A DNA stretch of 64,000 bases from Treponema denticola. GTDB lineage: Bacteria > Spirochaetota > Spirochaetia > Treponematales > Treponemataceae. The notes under the pieces are model-generated. The model did no database searches. It was not told the DNA's origin and worked only from the letters and a program-made list of their open reading frames with translations. The position numbers and the translations under genes were made by a program. Position 1 is the stretch's first letter; every line of letters begins with the position of its first letter. Positions 15,262 through 23,765 of this stretch are shown one piece after another. Where the stretch lies: assembly GCF_024400535.1 (NCBI RefSeq), contig NZ_CP038800.1:806001-870000 (forward strand), written 5' to 3'.

Positions 15262-17020
15262 ATGTCAACTTTACAAGAAAAATCAAAAAAATTAAGTACT
15301 CTGAGGCATAGTACTGCCCATGTTATGGCTGAAGCCGTAGTTAATCTATTTCCGGGAACAAAGGTTGCTATCGGGCCGGCTATCGATTACGGATTTTATT
15401 ATGATTTTGAACTGCCTCGTCCCATAAACAATGATGATTTACCCGCAATCGAAAAAGAAATGCGTAAAATTCTAACTACCCGTTCAAATTTTGAAAAGGA
15501 AGTGATAAGCCGGGAAAAGGCTCTTGAAATGTTTAAGGATCAGCCTTTTAAGATTGAACTTATAAAGGGTTTGCCTGCAGACGAAGAGATAAGTATTTAT
15601 AAGTCAGGTGAATTTACCGACCTTTGCCGGGGCCCCCATGTATGCTCGATGGCCGACATAAATGCTCAAGGTTTTAAACTTATGAAAATAGCCGGAGCAT
15701 ATTGGCGGGGAGATGAAACAAGACCCATGCTTACCCAGAATTTACGGTACGGCTTGGGAAAAGCCCAACGATTTAAAAGAGTATTTGGCTATGCTTGAAG
15801 AAGCCGAAAAGAGGGATCACCGAAAGATCGGAAAGGCTATGAATCTATTTCATATAGATGAAGAAAATCCCGGTCAAGTGTTTTGGCATCCTAAAGGCTG
15901 GACTCTTTATTTGACCATACAAAATTATGTAAGACAGCGCATAAAGGAAGACGGTTACCTTGAGGTTCATACCCCCTTTGTTATGCCCCGTTCCTTGTGG
16001 GAAAGGTCGGGCCATTGGGCTAAGTATAAAGAAAATATGTTTATAACCGAAAGCGAAAAGCGGCTCTTTGCCTTAAAGCCGATGAACTGTCCGGGGCATG
16101 TGGAAATATTTAAGCAGGGGATTAAAAGCTACAAGGACTTACCTCTGCGCTTAGCCGAATTCGGTTCCTGTACCCGAAATGAGCCTTCGGGTTCTTTACA
16201 CGGTATTATGCGTGTCCGCGGTTTTGTTCAAGATGACGCTCATATTTTTTGTACCGAAGAGCAAATTTCTTCCGAGGTTTCAAAATTCTGTGCCTTATTA
16301 AAGCGCATGTATGCAGATTTCGGCTTTGCTGAAGATAAAATTCTTGTTAAATTTTCTACGCGCCCAGAGCAGAGGGTAGGGGACGATGCTACATGGGACA
16401 GGGCGGAAAAGGCGCTCTCTGATGCTTGTGCAGATGCCGGCCTTGAATATGAAATTGCAGAAGGCGAGGGCGCCTTTTATGGGCCTAAGCTGGAGTTTAC
16501 TTTAATCGATGCCCTCGGCCGTGAATGGCAGTGCGGTACCATACAGGTAGATTATCAGCTTCCGTCTGCTGAAAGACTAAATGCCGAGTACATAGGAGAT
16601 GACAACAATAAGCATCATCCTGTAATGCTCCATAGGGCGGTTTTAGGCTCACTGGAAAGGTTTATAGGAATCTTGATAGAAAACTGTGCAGGTATTTTGC
16701 CTCCTTGGCTGGCTCCTGTGCAGGCTGTTATCGTTCCCGTAGCTCCCGCCTTTAACGAATACGCTCAAAAGGTTCAAAAAGCCTTGGACGAAAAAGGCTT
16801 TAGGGTTATCGCCGACATCGGAACCGATAGAATGAATGCTAAAATCCGAAAACACCAAGAAGAAAAGGTCATCTATCAGCTGATTGTAGGCCAAAGCGAA
16901 ATGGACAATAATTCCGTTGCGGTCAGAATGAGAAAGGGCGGTCAAAAGGTTATGACCTTAGATGAATTTATCTCATTCTTAAAAGACAAGGTTGATTCTT
17001 TTGCTATTGATGCAGAGTGA
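15262..17020 (+). CDS. thrS: threonyl-tRNA synthetase, interrupted by a one-base frameshift
   Basis: ThrRS charges tRNA-Thr and is essential. The N-terminal part (15262-15798) carries the editing domain with [11 protein letters not shown] and TDLCRGPH. The catalytic part, open in another frame to 17020, carries RSGHW, motif 2 ([17 protein letters not shown]), the zinc-ligand region and the anticodon domain. Deleting one C from CCC at 15734-15736 restores [14 protein letters not shown], which fits the family exactly. The protein starts at the editing domain, so a TGS domain is absent. Sequencing error is most likely. Confidence 0.93.
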
Positions 17021-17808: not shown

Positions 17809-20800
17809 CTATCTGTCTTCCGTTTGTTGTAGAATTTTTTCGTTTTCAAGGGTCTTAGGAATATCGCTGTAAATTTCAGGCACAAATGCAGACCTTGGTT
17901 TTACCATGTTTTGAATATTTGCATAAGCAAGGTTTATCGTTTTTGCCCTAATCATAGTTTCAGGATTTCTGTTTAAAGCATCCCAAGCTCGTGTAGATTC
18001 TCCTAATAAAGATACAGCTCTTCCGTTTTTGTTTGAGTCTCCATTTTGAACCGCAATCCTATTAAGCACTACTGCAAGGTTATTTGAAGTATGCATATAG
18101 TCTTCGACAAAGGCTGCGTGATCTACACGGGTTTGAGGGAAGATAATACCTTTTCTGATCCGCTCCGACTCCAATAATTCCATTAGTCTTTCATAATAGG
18201 CTTGAGCAGCAAAATAATTGGTATGCTTAAATAATACATTTCCAAAACCGTATAAAAGATTTCTATCATTAGGTTTTTGGCTATAAGCAAGAGTCATAGC
18301 TTTCATAGCTTCAGCATAGTTTTCTTTTTGATAATGAATGTATCCAATCCTATATCGAATTGATGGGCTGTCGTTTAACTCCTTTACTGCATTTTCATAG
18401 GCATCCAAGGCATCATCGTAATCTCCTGCAATAAAGTAAGAGATATCTCCGTAGTCGGCGTAGAGTTTACCTATAACCGCTGACGGATATATGCTTTTTT
18501 GAGATGTGTATGTCTCATATTTAGCCAAGGCATTTGAATAAATTGTTTGCGCTTCATTATATAGTTTGCCTCCTGCTATAAGCTCTCCATAAAGACGCAT
18601 TGCATCTATCTGCCTGATGGTCCGCTTAGGGGTCATTTTTATGCTGTCTTCGTAGAGATTTATTGCGTTTACAAGGTAATCTTTTGCTGCATTTTCTTTA
18701 TTATTATGTAAAAAGAAGCGTCCCATATTATAATTAGCTTCAGGACTTTCCGGCCTTTTTTTGATAGCTTTTTCTAAAAGATCCCTCAGGTCATCTATTT
18801 TTCCTATTAAATTTTCCGAATCTGTGGTTTTTGGCTCATACCTTTTTTCAAGAAGATAGCCGCTGAGCTCGATAAGGTCTTCATCATCTATTTTTTTGTT
18901 TATAAAATAATTTTTTAAGTTTAAAACTTCGGCTAAATTATCTGTACGGATAAAGTAACGCATCATCCTGCCTGAAAAGACCTCTTTATTACCATAGAGG
19001 TTTATGAGGCTTGCATAAGTTTTTCGTGCTTCTTCATACTTTTGGGAATCTTCATCTGCCCAATCCAAATATACATCTCCCAATGCTAAAAGAGCACTTT
19101 GATCGTTTATGTGATAATCTAAAACACCTCTGCGTAAAATCTTTTCTGCTTTTTCATAATTGCGTAAATCGGTACTCAGCATATCTGCGTATTCGATACC
19201 GCCTTGACGGTCATGGTTAAAGTCAAATAAAAGCCGCTCATAAATAGTTTCTGCGGATAGAAACTGCTTTTTTTCACGGAAAGCATTGGCAAATTTAAAG
19301 TACCATTTTCGTTTCTTTTTATATGCTCCGGCATCCTCAAAGCGGTTTAATGCCTTTTCATATTGCCCCGATTCAATATTGGCTATTCCTTCTTTGTAAA
19401 TCCCTTCCGCTACTATCGGTTTGTATATAAACTGCCAGACAAGTACAAAAACCGAAAAAATAAAGCCGAGGACTACCGCTGCTAAAACCGCAGCAGGTAA
19501 GATTTTATGCATAAAGCGGTACTTTAAGCTTCTTTTTTCCTTTTCATATTCTTCATATGATTTTTTATCAAAGCCGCGCGGAATAGGAATGGATTTATCT
19601 AAAATGCTTTCAAGTTTGCCTACTATACGTCTTAGAGATGCATCGTTGACAATCATATGAACTATTTCCATCTTGTTTAATTCGGAATCGTCTGCATTAA
19701 CAAGATAGTCTTCAATTTCTATTCTTAAATTTAAAGGAAATGATGAAATTCTGTCTATTAAATGGTCATATTCATCTTCGGAAATGGATAGAGGAATTTT
19801 ACCTTCGTATTCTTCTTCATTTATTTGCTTTTTTGAATCGAAAAATTTAAAATTCTTATCGGGTGAAAACTGTATAAAACTTTCCGGAACGGAAAAATCA
19901 TCTATATCTCCGCTCATTTCCGTATTTAATACATTATCATCGATAGCAAAAGCCGTGTGTTCGTCTATATCCGGAATATCAATATCTGTAAAGGTTCTGT
20001 TTTGGCTAGCCTCGTCTTGTCCGTTCTGAAAATCGGGTGAAGTTTGTTCGTCTTCGCTGATTTCTGCACTTTCAATCAATGAAGGACTGTCCATTTCATC
20101 AAAATTTGAAAGGGGGTCATCTTCGATTGGCCCGTCTTCAAAAGATAGGTCTATGCTGTCCCCTTCATTGTCTTCAAGGGGCTCAATTTCTTCCATATCG
20201 GAGAAATCTTCGTTTGAAAGGTCAAATTCTTTATAATTAGGTTCTGAAGCTTGAGAAAGAGAAGTTTTCTCAGTATCCGAATCAACTTGGGAATCTAAAT
20301 CATCGATTTTAAGGTCATCAAGTTTAAGGTCTTCAAGGCCTGAATCTGCATCATCCCCGATTTCTTCAAGATCTCCCAGATCCCCGGAGGCTTCTAAACT
20401 GTCTTGAATTTCCGGATCTGCAATAGTTTCAATATCCGGTTTTGAATTAAGAGTGAAATCGGTATCAAAGTCGGGGAAGGATGTTTCACTGATTTCAGGT
20501 TCCTCCCTTGCTTTTTCAACCATGTCGCCAAAACCTGAGAGAAGAGCTTCAGGTACATCGGGAAAATCATCATTTAAGTCTTGGGCTTTATCTTCTGTTG
20601 AAGGTTCGTCAATATTGAGATCCGAAAGCATGGATTCAAAGTCTTGGGAGTAATTTTCATTTTCTTCTTTATCATCTAAAGGCTCGATATCGTCATCCAA
20701 AGCTTCGGTAAACAAAGATATCTCTTTCGGGTTTTGTGAAATTATTTCTTCAGACTCATCCGTATCGGGCTTCTCTTGTTCAAAATTATCTTCTTCTTTC

Positions 20801-21033
20801 GGAAAATTATCTGCCGTATCAAACTCTGAAAGGTCATCCGGCCCTTGTTCAGGTGCAGCCTTGCTTTCTTCCGTAAAACCTAATAAGTCATCCACATTTA
20901 CATCGGGGAGAGGCATTTCTTTAGGCAAAGGAATTTCTTCACGCCTCTCACCCCATTTAGCCGTTATTTCGGGTTCATTCGCTATTTTGAGAAGTTGATC
21001 TTTGAATTTTTCAAGCTCTTTTATATTAGGCAT
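17809..21033 (-). CDS. large TPR membrane protein with acidic N-terminal half
   Basis: The 1074 residues divide into a long acidic, probably disordered cytoplasmic region (about 20-430, rich in Asp/Glu/Ser), a single membrane helix (about 507-536), and a large periplasmic domain. That domain contains at least eight TPR-like repeats such as YEKALNRFEDAGAYKK and YDDALDAYENAV. The ribosome-binding site GGGGGGAGG is strong. The layout recalls spirochaete TPR proteins of the periplasmic flagellar apparatus (Borrelia FlcA/BB0326), but that link is inference from architecture, not sequence comparison. Confidence 0.75.
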   Translation of the reverse strand: MPNIKELEKFKDQLLKIANEPEITAKWGERREEIPLPKEMPLPDVNVDDLLGFTEESKAAPEQGPDDLSEFDTADNFPKEEDNFEQEKPDTDESEEIISQNPKEISLFTEALDDDIEPLDDKEENENYSQDFESMLSDLNIDEPSTEDKAQDLNDDFPDVPEALLSGFGDMVEKAREEPEISETSFPDFDTDFTLNSKPDIETIADPEIQDSLEASGDLGDLEEIGDDADSGLEDLKLDDLKIDDLDSQVDSDTEKTSLSQASEPNYKEFDLSNEDFSDMEEIEPLEDNEGDSIDLSFEDGPIEDDPLSNFDEMDSPSLIESAEISEDEQTSPDFQNGQDEASQNRTFTDIDIPDIDEHTAFAIDDNVLNTEMSGDIDDFSVPESFIQFSPDKNFKFFDSKKQINEEEYEGKIPLSISEDEYDHLIDRISSFPLNLRIEIEDYLVNADDSELNKMEIVHMIVNDASLRRIVGKLESILDKSIPIPRGFDKKSYEEYEKEKRSLKYRFMHKILPAAVLAAVVLGFIFSVFVLVWQFIYKPIVAEGIYKEGIANIESGQYEKALNRFEDAGAYKKKRKWYFKFANAFREKKQFLSAETIYERLLFDFNHDRQGGIEYADMLSTDLRNYEKAEKILRRGVLDYHINDQSALLALGDVYLDWADEDSQKYEEARKTYASLINLYGNKEVFSGRMMRYFIRTDNLAEVLNLKNYFINKKIDDEDLIELSGYLLEKRYEPKTTDSENLIGKIDDLRDLLEKAIKKRPESPEANYNMGRFFLHNNKENAAKDYLVNAINLYEDSIKMTPKRTIRQIDAMRLYGELIAGGKLYNEAQTIYSNALAKYETYTSQKSIYPSAVIGKLYADYGDISYFIAGDYDDALDAYENAVKELNDSPSIRYRIGYIHYQKENYAEAMKAMTLAYSQKPNDRNLLYGFGNVLFKHTNYFAAQAYYERLMELLESERIRKGIIFPQTRVDHAAFVEDYMHTSNNLAVVLNRIAVQNGDSNKNGRAVSLLGESTRAWDALNRNPETMIRAKTINLAYANIQNMVKPRSAFVPEIYSDIPKTLENEKILQQTEDR

Positions 21034-21215: not shown

Positions 21216-21244
21216 TTGACATAACGGCTTTTTTTTTGCATTAT
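21216..21244 (+). promoter_or_regulatory. promoter for the DUF4912/GH57-like operon
   Basis: TTGACA (21216-21221) with a 17-base spacer to CATTAT (21239-21244). The start codon follows about 57 bases later. On the other side, the minus-strand TPR gene starts at 21033, so this is a divergent promoter region. Confidence 0.45.
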
Positions 21245-21301: not shown

Positions 21302-21988
21302 GTGAATTTATCAAAAAGTTATTTACAATCCGTTTCGACGGAAGATCTTTTTCAAATTGCTGAAACACATGGCGTTTTTGTATCGAAAGGTCTTTCTAGG
21401 AATCTAATCATAGAAGAGCTGCTTGAGTTGAATGAAGACAGATCTAAGATTACCGATAAGCTTTTTTATGCACAAAACGAAAATTTTACATCTGAGGATG
21501 AAGTTTCAGATAAAGAAAATACAGGTTTGGTTGTCTCATACAATACAACCGAAATTCATGTCTTACTCAGAGATCCTATGTGGGCTTTTGCGTTTTGGGA
21601 TTTTTATAAGCCTGAGTTTATAAACATTATAAGTGATGCAGATTTTGATTCTTTCTTTTTGAGGGTAAATTTGTTTTCTCAAACCGATTTATCGGAAGTA
21701 TATGACTATTTTGATATTGATGTAAGCGATTCCGATAGGAGCAGATATTTTTATCTTTCATTTGAAGATAGTATAACAAGGGTAGAGCTTTGTTCCCGGA
21801 CATTGGAAGGTGATGTTTCGATTTTAGCAAAGTCTAATTTTATACAGCTTAAACGGGAAAATATTCCGAGAAACCTGTGTGTACTTGAAAACGATGTAAG
21901 TTCTCCGCTCTACCTTTCCGGTCTTTCTGTGTTAAAAAAACATCATTTTAAAAACTATCGTCAGGCTTTTAGAGGAAAAGGGGAGTAG
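21302..21988 (+). CDS. DUF4912 protein
   Basis: The start at 21302 is GTG. The 228 residues have an N-terminal SAP/Rho-N-like helical segment (DLFQIAETHGVFVSKGLSRN) and then the DUF4912 core (LLRDPMWAFAFWDF ... YFDIDV ... FYLSF ... VELC). Function is not established; the family often sits beside GH57/DUF1957 proteins, as here, where the two stops and starts are four bases apart. The pair should act together. Confidence 0.75.
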   Translation: MNLSKSYLQSVSTEDLFQIAETHGVFVSKGLSRNLIIEELLELNEDRSKITDKLFYAQNENFTSEDEVSDKENTGLVVSYNTTEIHVLLRDPMWAFAFWDFYKPEFINIISDADFDSFFLRVNLFSQTDLSEVYDYFDIDVSDSDRSRYFYLSFEDSITRVELCSRTLEGDVSILAKSNFIQLKRENIPRNLCVLENDVSSPLYLSGLSVLKKHHFKNYRQAFRGKGE

Positions 21989-21992
21989 AAGA

Positions 21993-23567
21993 TTGAAAGA
22001 TTGTAATTTACTTTTTATTTTGGATGCACATCTGCCTTATGTCCGTAATGAGGTTGAAGAAGGATTTGTAGAAGACGAATGGCTTTTTGATGCTTTGTCA
22101 TATCTATATCTTCCGATTTTAAAAATGTGTTCTAATTTGAAGAAGGATAATATTCCGTTTAAATTGGGTGCGGCTTTTGAACCGGCTTTATGCGATATGC
22201 TTGCCGATAAGGTTTTACAGAATAGGTACCGAATTAATATTCAGCGTAAAATAGAATTTGCAAAAAAAGAACTTGAACGTTTTTCTGAATGTGAAAATAC
22301 AAAAAAACTTATTCAATATAATTTAAAACGTTTTAATGATAATAAAAGAATTTTTGAGGATTGCGGAGGCGATGTGTTAAAACAGTTTGATCTGCTTTCT
22401 CAACAAGGTTATATAGAGCTTTTGGCTACCACAGCAACAAATTGTTTTTTGCCGTTTTTTTTAAATATGCCTGAAGCTATTGCTGCACAAGTGGAAATGG
22501 GACAAATAAATTACCGTAAACATTTTAGTGCTGTGCCGTCCGGTTTTTGGATTCCGTCTATGGCTTATTTTGAGGGCTTGGATGATATTATAAGAAGCTA
22601 CGGCTATGATTATACGGTTGTCTCCTCAGAAGCCTTTTTGCTTTGTGATAAGGTACCTCCTGCAGGAGTGTTTTCAGCTGCGGTTTCTAAAAACGGTTTA
22701 AAGTTTTTAGCCACTGATCTTTGTGCCTGCCGTTCTATTTATGACGAGGCTGACGGCTTTGCCGAAAATAAAGTTTATATTGATGTAAAAGATGATGTAG
22801 GGTTTAAACTATCTGAAGAGTATTTAGCATCCGTTTTTGAGACTTCAAAAGGAAGGCGTGCAATCGGTTTCCGCTACTGGTCAAAGGAAGAAGATACTCC
22901 TTATGATATACATAAAGCTCATTCACAAAGTTGGGCAGATGCCGAAGATTATGTGAATTCCCGTACTGAAGCTTTAAGGGCTATAAAAGAAACAAAAACT
23001 TGCGAATCTCCTTTTTCTCTTTTGATTATTTCATCCGAGTTTTTTGGAAAAAAATGGTGTGAAGGTTTTATATGGCTTGAAAGAGTCTTTAGGTTAATAA
23101 ATGATAGTGATTGCTTAAAATCTGTTTTTCCGTCCGCAGCTGTAAATTTGTCCAAACAGCTTTATACAGTTAAACCGTTTTTTTCTTCTTTTTTACCTTC
23201 AGGATATGCTGCTGAACTTTTAACAAAAGAAAATGACTGGATGTATAGATATATAATTAAGATTACGGAAAGAATGATAGGATTAGTAGAGATGTTCCCT
23301 GAAGACGGCAGTTTAAAAGAGCGTGTTTTAAATGCTGCTGCAAGAGAGGTTCTTCTTTTACAATCTTTATATTGGCCTCTGTATGCAAATGATCCACAGC
23401 TTAAAGACTTTGCAGAAAGACGCTTTGTAGAACATGTTAATTCTTTTACGGCAGCCTATGAAGCTCTTGGAGCGGATTCTCCTGATGCAAAATGGCTTTC
23501 CAATCGTGAAAATAAATATCCGATTTTTAAAAATATTAATTACCGTATTTTTAGCCGTAAAAAATAA
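21993..23567 (+). CDS. GH57-like (DUF1957-type) protein lacking catalytic residues
   Basis: The start is TTG, with GGAG seven bases upstream. The 524 residues follow GH57 branching-enzyme order: DAHLPYVRN (11-19), QVEMGQINYRKHF (166-178), WIPSMAYFEGLDD (186-198), and SSEFFGKKWCEG (347-358). In active enzymes the third region reads WLPECAY, with the nucleophile Glu, and the fourth DTELFGHWW, with the acid/base Asp. Here those positions are Ser189 and Ser347. The fold is kept but hydrolysis or branching seems impossible, suggesting a glycan-binding or regulatory role with the DUF4912 partner. Confidence 0.75.
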   Translation: MKDCNLLFILDAHLPYVRNEVEEGFVEDEWLFDALSYLYLPILKMCSNLKKDNIPFKLGAAFEPALCDMLADKVLQNRYRINIQRKIEFAKKELERFSECENTKKLIQYNLKRFNDNKRIFEDCGGDVLKQFDLLSQQGYIELLATTATNCFLPFFLNMPEAIAAQVEMGQINYRKHFSAVPSGFWIPSMAYFEGLDDIIRSYGYDYTVVSSEAFLLCDKVPPAGVFSAAVSKNGLKFLATDLCACRSIYDEADGFAENKVYIDVKDDVGFKLSEEYLASVFETSKGRRAIGFRYWSKEEDTPYDIHKAHSQSWADAEDYVNSRTEALRAIKETKTCESPFSLLIISSEFFGKKWCEGFIWLERVFRLINDSDCLKSVFPSAAVNLSKQLYTVKPFFSSFLPSGYAAELLTKENDWMYRYIIKITERMIGLVEMFPEDGSLKERVLNAAAREVLLLQSLYWPLYANDPQLKDFAERRFVEHVNSFTAAYEALGADSPDAKWLSNRENKYPIFKNINYRIFSRKK

Positions 23568-23632: not shown

Positions 23633-23726
23633 ACGGACACGGATGTCCGTGATTCCACGCTCGCAAGTTTTAGCCGCAGGCTAAAACTTGAAGATGAAAA
23701 TCGGACACGGATGTCCGATTTTCATC
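23633..23726. repeat. cluster of three perfect hairpins
   Basis: Three inverted repeats follow each other: 23633-23650 (ACGGACA arms), 23664-23690 (12-bp arms CAAGTTTTAGCC, loop GCA), and 23693-23726 (15-bp arms starting GATGAAAATCGG, loop CGGA). Hairpins 1 and 3 share the core GGACACGGATGTCC. The first stands 65 bases after the GH57-like stop and could end its transcript, although no strong T tract follows any of them. Confidence 0.8.
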
Positions 23727-23765
23727 GGTCTTGCATAAAATCTTATAAATGTATAAAATATTCTT

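Follow-up and report, generated by a model that had tools for sequence, protein, structure and literature searches.

A degenerate GH57 protein retained beside DUF4912 in Treponemataceae as a probable pseudoenzyme scaffold

The window, a 64,000-nucleotide stretch of a 2.92 Mb Treponema denticola genome (contig NZ_CP038800.1), contained a DUF4912 gene and a GH57-like gene, both on the plus strand, with 4 bp between the stop of the former and the start of the latter (Table 1). The DUF4912 product was a clear member of PF16258, with a score of 69 bits against the Pfam gathering score of 29.4. The product of the second gene matched PF03065 (1.5e-23) and PF09210 (BE_C, 2e-29), both over cut-off. The initial annotation had described the two as a pair; both open reading frames were located, and they formed a stable two-gene unit. 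The divergent neighbour upstream (17809–21033, minus strand) encoded the periplasmic flagellar collar protein FlcA (NF047371, 2.2e-245), and FlcA adjoined the pair in the genus of the window only. A threonyl-tRNA-synthetase-like open reading frame of 435 aa was located at 15713–17020 on the plus strand; as listed, it contained the core and anticodon domains and lacked the usual N-terminal domains of such enzymes. A TD-2 RNA (Rfam RF03162, 87 bits; 23633–23730, plus strand) was located between the GH57-like gene and an alanine racemase gene, and its palindrome, CGGACACGGATGTCCG, was present in six copies in the genome.

Table 1. Positions of the DUF4912 and GH57-like genes and their features in the window.
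Feature	Position	Strand	Remarks
Sigma-70-like promoter match, TTGACA-N17-CATTAT	21216-21244	+	Upstream of the pair; weak, regional match count not above chance
DUF4912 gene	21302-21988	+	GTG start, 228 aa; PF16258, E=5.6e-19
DUF4912 residues 5-59, small helical N-terminal domain, possibly Rho_N/HeH-like	21314-21478	+	AlphaFold
DUF4912 residues 84-180, beta sandwich, fibronectin type III-like fold	21551-21841	+	Predicted
DUF4912 residues 205-223, C-terminal tail LSGLSVLKKHHFKNYRQAF, candidate docking peptide	21914-21970	+	
GH57-like pseudo-branching enzyme gene	21993-23567	+	TTG start, 524 aa; AGGAAAAGGGGAG upstream
Ser189 codon TCT, position of the catalytic nucleophile Glu	22557-22559	+	
Ser347 codon TCA, position of the acid/base Asp	23031-23033	+	
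GH57-like residues 434-442, part of the newly conserved surface	23292-23318	+	R434 in the clade, Met here; K442
GH57-like residues 490-503, part of the newly conserved surface	23460-23501	+	Clade consensus D-x-L-G-S-N-x-x-x-T-E-W-L-T

The GH57-like protein was compared with the solved GH57 branching enzymes 2b5d (AmyC of Thermotoga maritima), 5wu7, 3n8t (TK1436 of Thermococcus kodakarensis), and 1ufa/3p0b. The motif GFWIPSMAY of the window protein aligned without gaps to G(I/F)WL(A/P)E(C/M)(G/A)Y of these enzymes, and SSEFFG aligned without gaps to D(A/T)ELFG. Because the local motifs aligned without shifts, Ser189 is placed at the position of the nucleophile (E185 in AmyC, E183 in TK1436) and Ser347 at that of the acid/base (D349 in AmyC, D354 in TK1436). 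The numbering of the catalytic residues of AmyC and TK1436 was taken from PMC6616209 and was reproduced in the present alignment. A Glu or Asp at shifted sites was ruled out by the ungapped, conserved flanks across 174 relatives. The replacement of both catalytic carboxylates, which the initial annotation had proposed and for which an alignment with TK1436 at residues 183 and 354 had been suggested, was thus borne out. The loss was understated in that proposal, since residues corresponding to H10, W246, F261, W356, W402, W411, S462, D463, and F466 of the AmyC site were also absent, and the loss extended through the clade. In total, the window protein retained 2 of 14 published active-site residues.

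The AlphaFold model of the GH57-like protein had a pLDDT of 92.6. AmyC was both its best fold match in the PDB (TM 0.92) and the best sequence match of the protein (6e-74, full length); TK1436 shared the same fold with TM values of 0.83–0.87. AmyC is a GH57 branching enzyme that also has hydrolytic activity (PMC6616209); unlike the window protein, it has E185, D349, H10, and aromatic gatekeepers. TK1436 differs from the window protein in that it is active in branching and carries E183 and D354 together with a long catalytic loop (PMC6616209). The modelled fold is that of a branching enzyme, including the BE_C helical domain, from which the catalytic Glu and Asp are gone. The scores fell far below the curated NCBIfam equivalog cut-offs for GH57 branching enzymes, with 196 of 1000 bits for NF041133 and 184 of 920 bits for NF041566.

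The 14 published site residues (catalytic, polarizer, gatekeeper, and groove aromatics; AmyC numbering) were scored in 174 sequences. All 14 were present in each of the 46 non-spirochaete sequences, and 13–14 were present in all 24 sequences of Spirochaetota outside the class Spirochaetia. Other members of the class retained 9–14, with separate losses: Asp was replaced by Ser in f11, Glu by Asp in f10, and Glu by Tyr in f15 and in one f12 genome. Families f2–f4, which belong to the same order as the Treponemataceae, retained 5–11. In the Treponemataceae (f1), 0–5 residues remained in all 66 sequences, with a median of 2. Here the catalytic pair took the forms YP, ED, YD, SS, AD, ES, and others, and is apparently unconstrained. 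Both Glu and Asp (ED) were found in eight rows, and the other site residues were lost in those rows. The residues W356 and W411 were replaced in 48 of 48 Treponemataceae, W402 and the polarizer H10 in 47 of 48, and the F466 position in nearly all. The GH57-like protein of one relative (G169) was 84% identical to the window protein.

The site was also more variable than its surroundings. In the Treponemataceae, the mean entropy was 2.62 bits at the 14 site positions versus 1.81 elsewhere in the protein, and outside the class Spirochaetia the values were 0.05 and 1.32, respectively. Among positions invariant in the outgroup, the excess of site variability in the Treponemataceae was significant (p = 3e-5). 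In a tree built without the site columns, by a quick method and with some long branches, the Treponemataceae formed one clade (SH-aLRT 100), and the remaining degenerate lineages within the class fell on scattered branches. To judge from these sequences, catalysis was lost several times in the class Spirochaetia and completely in the Treponemataceae, in line with the earlier expectation that the protein should neither cleave nor branch glycans.

The GH57-like gene is under purifying selection and is not decaying away. Its dN/dS within the genus was 0.09–0.12, and that of the DUF4912 gene was 0.17–0.26. The GH57-like reading frame was intact in each of the 48 Treponemataceae genomes sampled, including one of 1.14 Mb (G056), which confirms that it is maintained. 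The G056 genome kept the DUF4912–GH57 pair though it gave no match to glycogen synthase (GlgA).

Other positions changed in the opposite direction. Residues E168, Y203, R434, and K442, among others, were 95–100% conserved in the Treponemataceae and variable outside the class. Residues R434, K442, T499, and E500, which were variable or different outside the class Spirochaetia, were already conserved in its basal families, where the site was often still complete, and the conservation of E168, Y203, and N516 followed at the level of the order. The window protein departed from the clade at three of the surface positions, with Met434, Ala499, and Lys500. The newly conserved positions could serve stability instead of binding.

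The AlphaFold model of the DUF4912 protein had a mean pLDDT of 81. Rho_N was detected in 4 of 61 DUF4912 homologues and not in the window protein. Fibronectin type III domains were among the best PDB matches of the model, with TM values of up to 0.64 (by target length). The C-terminal tail distinguishes the members of PF16258 in the Treponemataceae, to which the window protein belongs: the consensus LSGxxxLxxxHYxNHRQSF was found in 64 of 66 Treponemataceae sequences and in none of 88 others. The new GH57 surface therefore appears to have arisen in the class Spirochaetia, and the DUF4912 tail in the Treponemataceae only. In the single-chain model the tail was of low confidence, which would fit a peptide that becomes ordered upon binding a partner and would also fit a disordered terminus. 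The tail was lost in the DUF4912 protein of G056 and is therefore not essential for the role of the pair in that organism. The literature searched contained no treatment of DUF4912, which was mentioned in a plant transcriptome study only.

The DUF4912 gene was located directly upstream of the GH57-like gene at all 48 Treponemataceae loci and in every family of the class Spirochaetia whose pair was read. In other phyla, it was directly upstream of GH57 in nearly all loci with enough upstream DNA. The pair occurred with an intact GH57 site in Nitrospirae, in Brocadia and other Planctomycetes, in Endomicrobium and other Elusimicrobia, and in Firmicutes, Cyanobacteria, Deltaproteobacteria, and others. 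In the spirochaete families f24, f29, f39, f42, f46, and f52, the two genes were apart, and both were mostly present. Among 296 genomes of the phylum, 150 contained both genes, 17 GH57 only, 3 DUF4912 only, and 126 neither, which corresponded to a Fisher p of about 5e-60 for co-occurrence with relatedness ignored. A survey of spirochaetes had been proposed with the initial annotation. The pair was present in every Treponemataceae genome sampled and in all sampled families of the class Spirochaetia except f6 and f13, and its range extended far beyond the spirochaetes.

The genes flanking the pair differed from genus to genus, and therefore the pair itself is the unit; a larger conserved operon around it was ruled out on the same grounds. 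No natural fusion of DUF4912 with GH57, which would have supported contact between the two proteins, was found among the loci examined. In basal families of the class (loci L042, L036, L041, L065, L124, L037, and L052), the pair headed a run of putative mraZ, rsmH, murF, and mraY genes of the division and cell-wall cluster, which were named by eye from sequence motifs. DUF4912 beside GH57 is, as its distribution indicates, an ancient arrangement with active-looking enzymes. Loss of catalysis as a result of the gene coming to lie beside DUF4912 was ruled out, because the pairing predates the loss and many phyla have it with the site intact.

Both GlgA and GlgX were present in the genome of the window. 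Glycogen synthase scored over cut-off in 30 of the 31 Treponemataceae genomes tested other than G056. Neither the genome of the window nor any Treponemataceae tested had a GH13 branching enzyme that scored above the curated cut-off, which rules out a GH13 GlgB above cut-off as a replacement for the lost activity in these genomes. The only other GH57 gene of this genome (L213:4026-5909, plus strand; G000:C1:1477525-1479405) encoded a protein of 627 aa related to 4-alpha-glucanotransferase (1k1w), in which Tyr replaces the Glu that serves as catalytic nucleophile. All 46 genomes in which this second gene was sought, the 1.14 Mb genome included, gave a match, and the nucleophile position of its product was occupied in treponemes, G056 among them, by A, H, T, G, S, Q, or Y, and by Glu in three. 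A literature search on glycogen in T. denticola returned nothing decisive, and one on TP0358/TP0359, the locus tags guessed for the gene in T. pallidum, returned nothing relevant.

Relatives of branching enzymes without one or both catalytic residues were described as GBE-like GH57 proteins by Martinovicova and Janecek (2018; PMC6037648), whose main text gives a GBE-like group of 60 sequences, all bacterial, with a mean of 520 aa, and a 4AGT-like group of 63 sequences with 623 aa. The window protein agrees with the GBE-like definition given there, being bacterial and 524 aa long against about 520 aa, and the sizes of the GBE-like and 4AGT-like groups fit the window protein and the second GH57, respectively. 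The main text of PMC6037648 contains no Treponema and gives no partner gene or role for the GBE-like proteins. Beyond that description, the Treponemataceae add the loss of the whole site in one family, the DUF4912 partner, the new surface, and the tail. Dead GH57 proteins of this kind were thus already known from their sequences; the literature searched, as far as the main text of that paper represents it, described neither the history of the loss across the clade nor the partner or the replacement surface.

The whole site was lost and the gene was nevertheless kept beside the same partner; therefore, the GH57-like protein is most likely a structural or binding protein and not an enzyme. It is probably a pseudoenzyme scaffold that has given up its catalytic and glucan-binding site and whose outer surface holds DUF4912 (and probably further partners) in a complex. 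In the proposed course of events, an ancestral two-gene unit across phyla would have consisted of DUF4912 and an active GH57 branching enzyme, which made glycogen branches as a complex. In the class Spirochaetia, the exterior of the GH57 protein would have gained an extra binding function, after which catalysis became dispensable and was repeatedly lost. In the Treponemataceae, the scaffold alone would be left, and DUF4912 would have gained its conserved C-terminal tail, which is proposed to dock on the pseudoenzyme. The GH57-like protein would be retained because its outer surface holds DUF4912. The sequences themselves show that the site was lost, that the gene is under purifying selection, that its pairing with DUF4912 is nearly obligate, and in which order the changes came about, and the predicted model shows a preserved fold. 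The physical complex, the docking of the tail, and a present role that is structural and apart from glycogen are what we infer from these patterns.

The strongest rival explanation is that the pair is a non-catalytic regulatory subunit of glycogen metabolism, accessory to GlgA, GlgX, or glycogen itself. The descent from a branching enzyme agrees with such a role, as do the full glycogen synthase in 30 of 32 Treponemataceae genomes tested, the GlgX of the present genome, and the lack of any GH13 branching enzyme that passes the curated cut-off. However, the pair persists in G056, where nothing matches GlgA, glgA and glgX of the present genome are located elsewhere, and the pair has no constant neighbour. 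This role is considered rather unlikely, though it may apply in organisms that have GlgA. The initial annotation had suggested a glycan sensor or a scaffold, and of these the scaffold is the best remaining role. A sensor, in which the dead site would still bind alpha-glucan and signal through DUF4912, is consistent with the preserved overall fold and with the few rows that retain single site residues. The loss of the groove aromatics speaks against it: substitutions have removed the platforms W356, W402, W411, and F466, as well as the polarizer H10, almost throughout, leaving the groove as degenerate as the catalytic residues, and the conserved aromatic platforms by which carbohydrate binding is recognized were absent from nearly all Treponemataceae. 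A selected binding site should moreover be conserved, and this one varies more than the remainder of the protein; the persistence of the pair in G056 without a detectable glycogen synthase also argues against a sensor, which is judged improbable.

A new catalytic activity through other residues could be read from E168, Y203, and N516, which became invariant in the Treponemataceae, and from the eight rows that still carry Glu and Asp. Most invariant residues are invariant in active enzymes too and are thus probably structural, and the rows with Glu and Asp lack the other site residues, which makes a new activity quite improbable. Neutral decay toward a pseudogene might account for the many substitutions and for an overall divergence that is greater in the clade than outside the class. 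It is refuted, with hardly any doubt left, by the open frame in the 48 sampled Treponemataceae genomes, by a dN/dS of about 0.1, and by the retention of the gene in a 1.14 Mb genome.

Taken further, the scaffold reading leads to a wider proposal, which is tentative and perhaps does not hold: the Treponemataceae may have turned a pan-bacterial DUF4912–GH57 branching unit into a non-glycan structural complex, with the other GH57 decaying in parallel. With the branching unit repurposed and the other GH57 decayed, most of these bacteria would be left with a glycogen synthase and without a recognized branching enzyme, and would either make glucan without branches or introduce them by an enzyme of a kind not yet recognized.

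The spirochaete proteins provide a natural series from an active-looking enzyme to a pure pseudoenzyme, in which the site is full outside the class, partial in related families, and totally lost in one family, and the partner is constant. DUF4912, on which there is practically no literature, regularly accompanies GH57 branching enzymes as their partner throughout the bacteria, and its function is therefore directly testable in an active system. Treponemes include the syphilis agent. The gene is labelled a branching enzyme by family searches, and it should not be counted as one in metabolic models of treponemes, including that pathogen.
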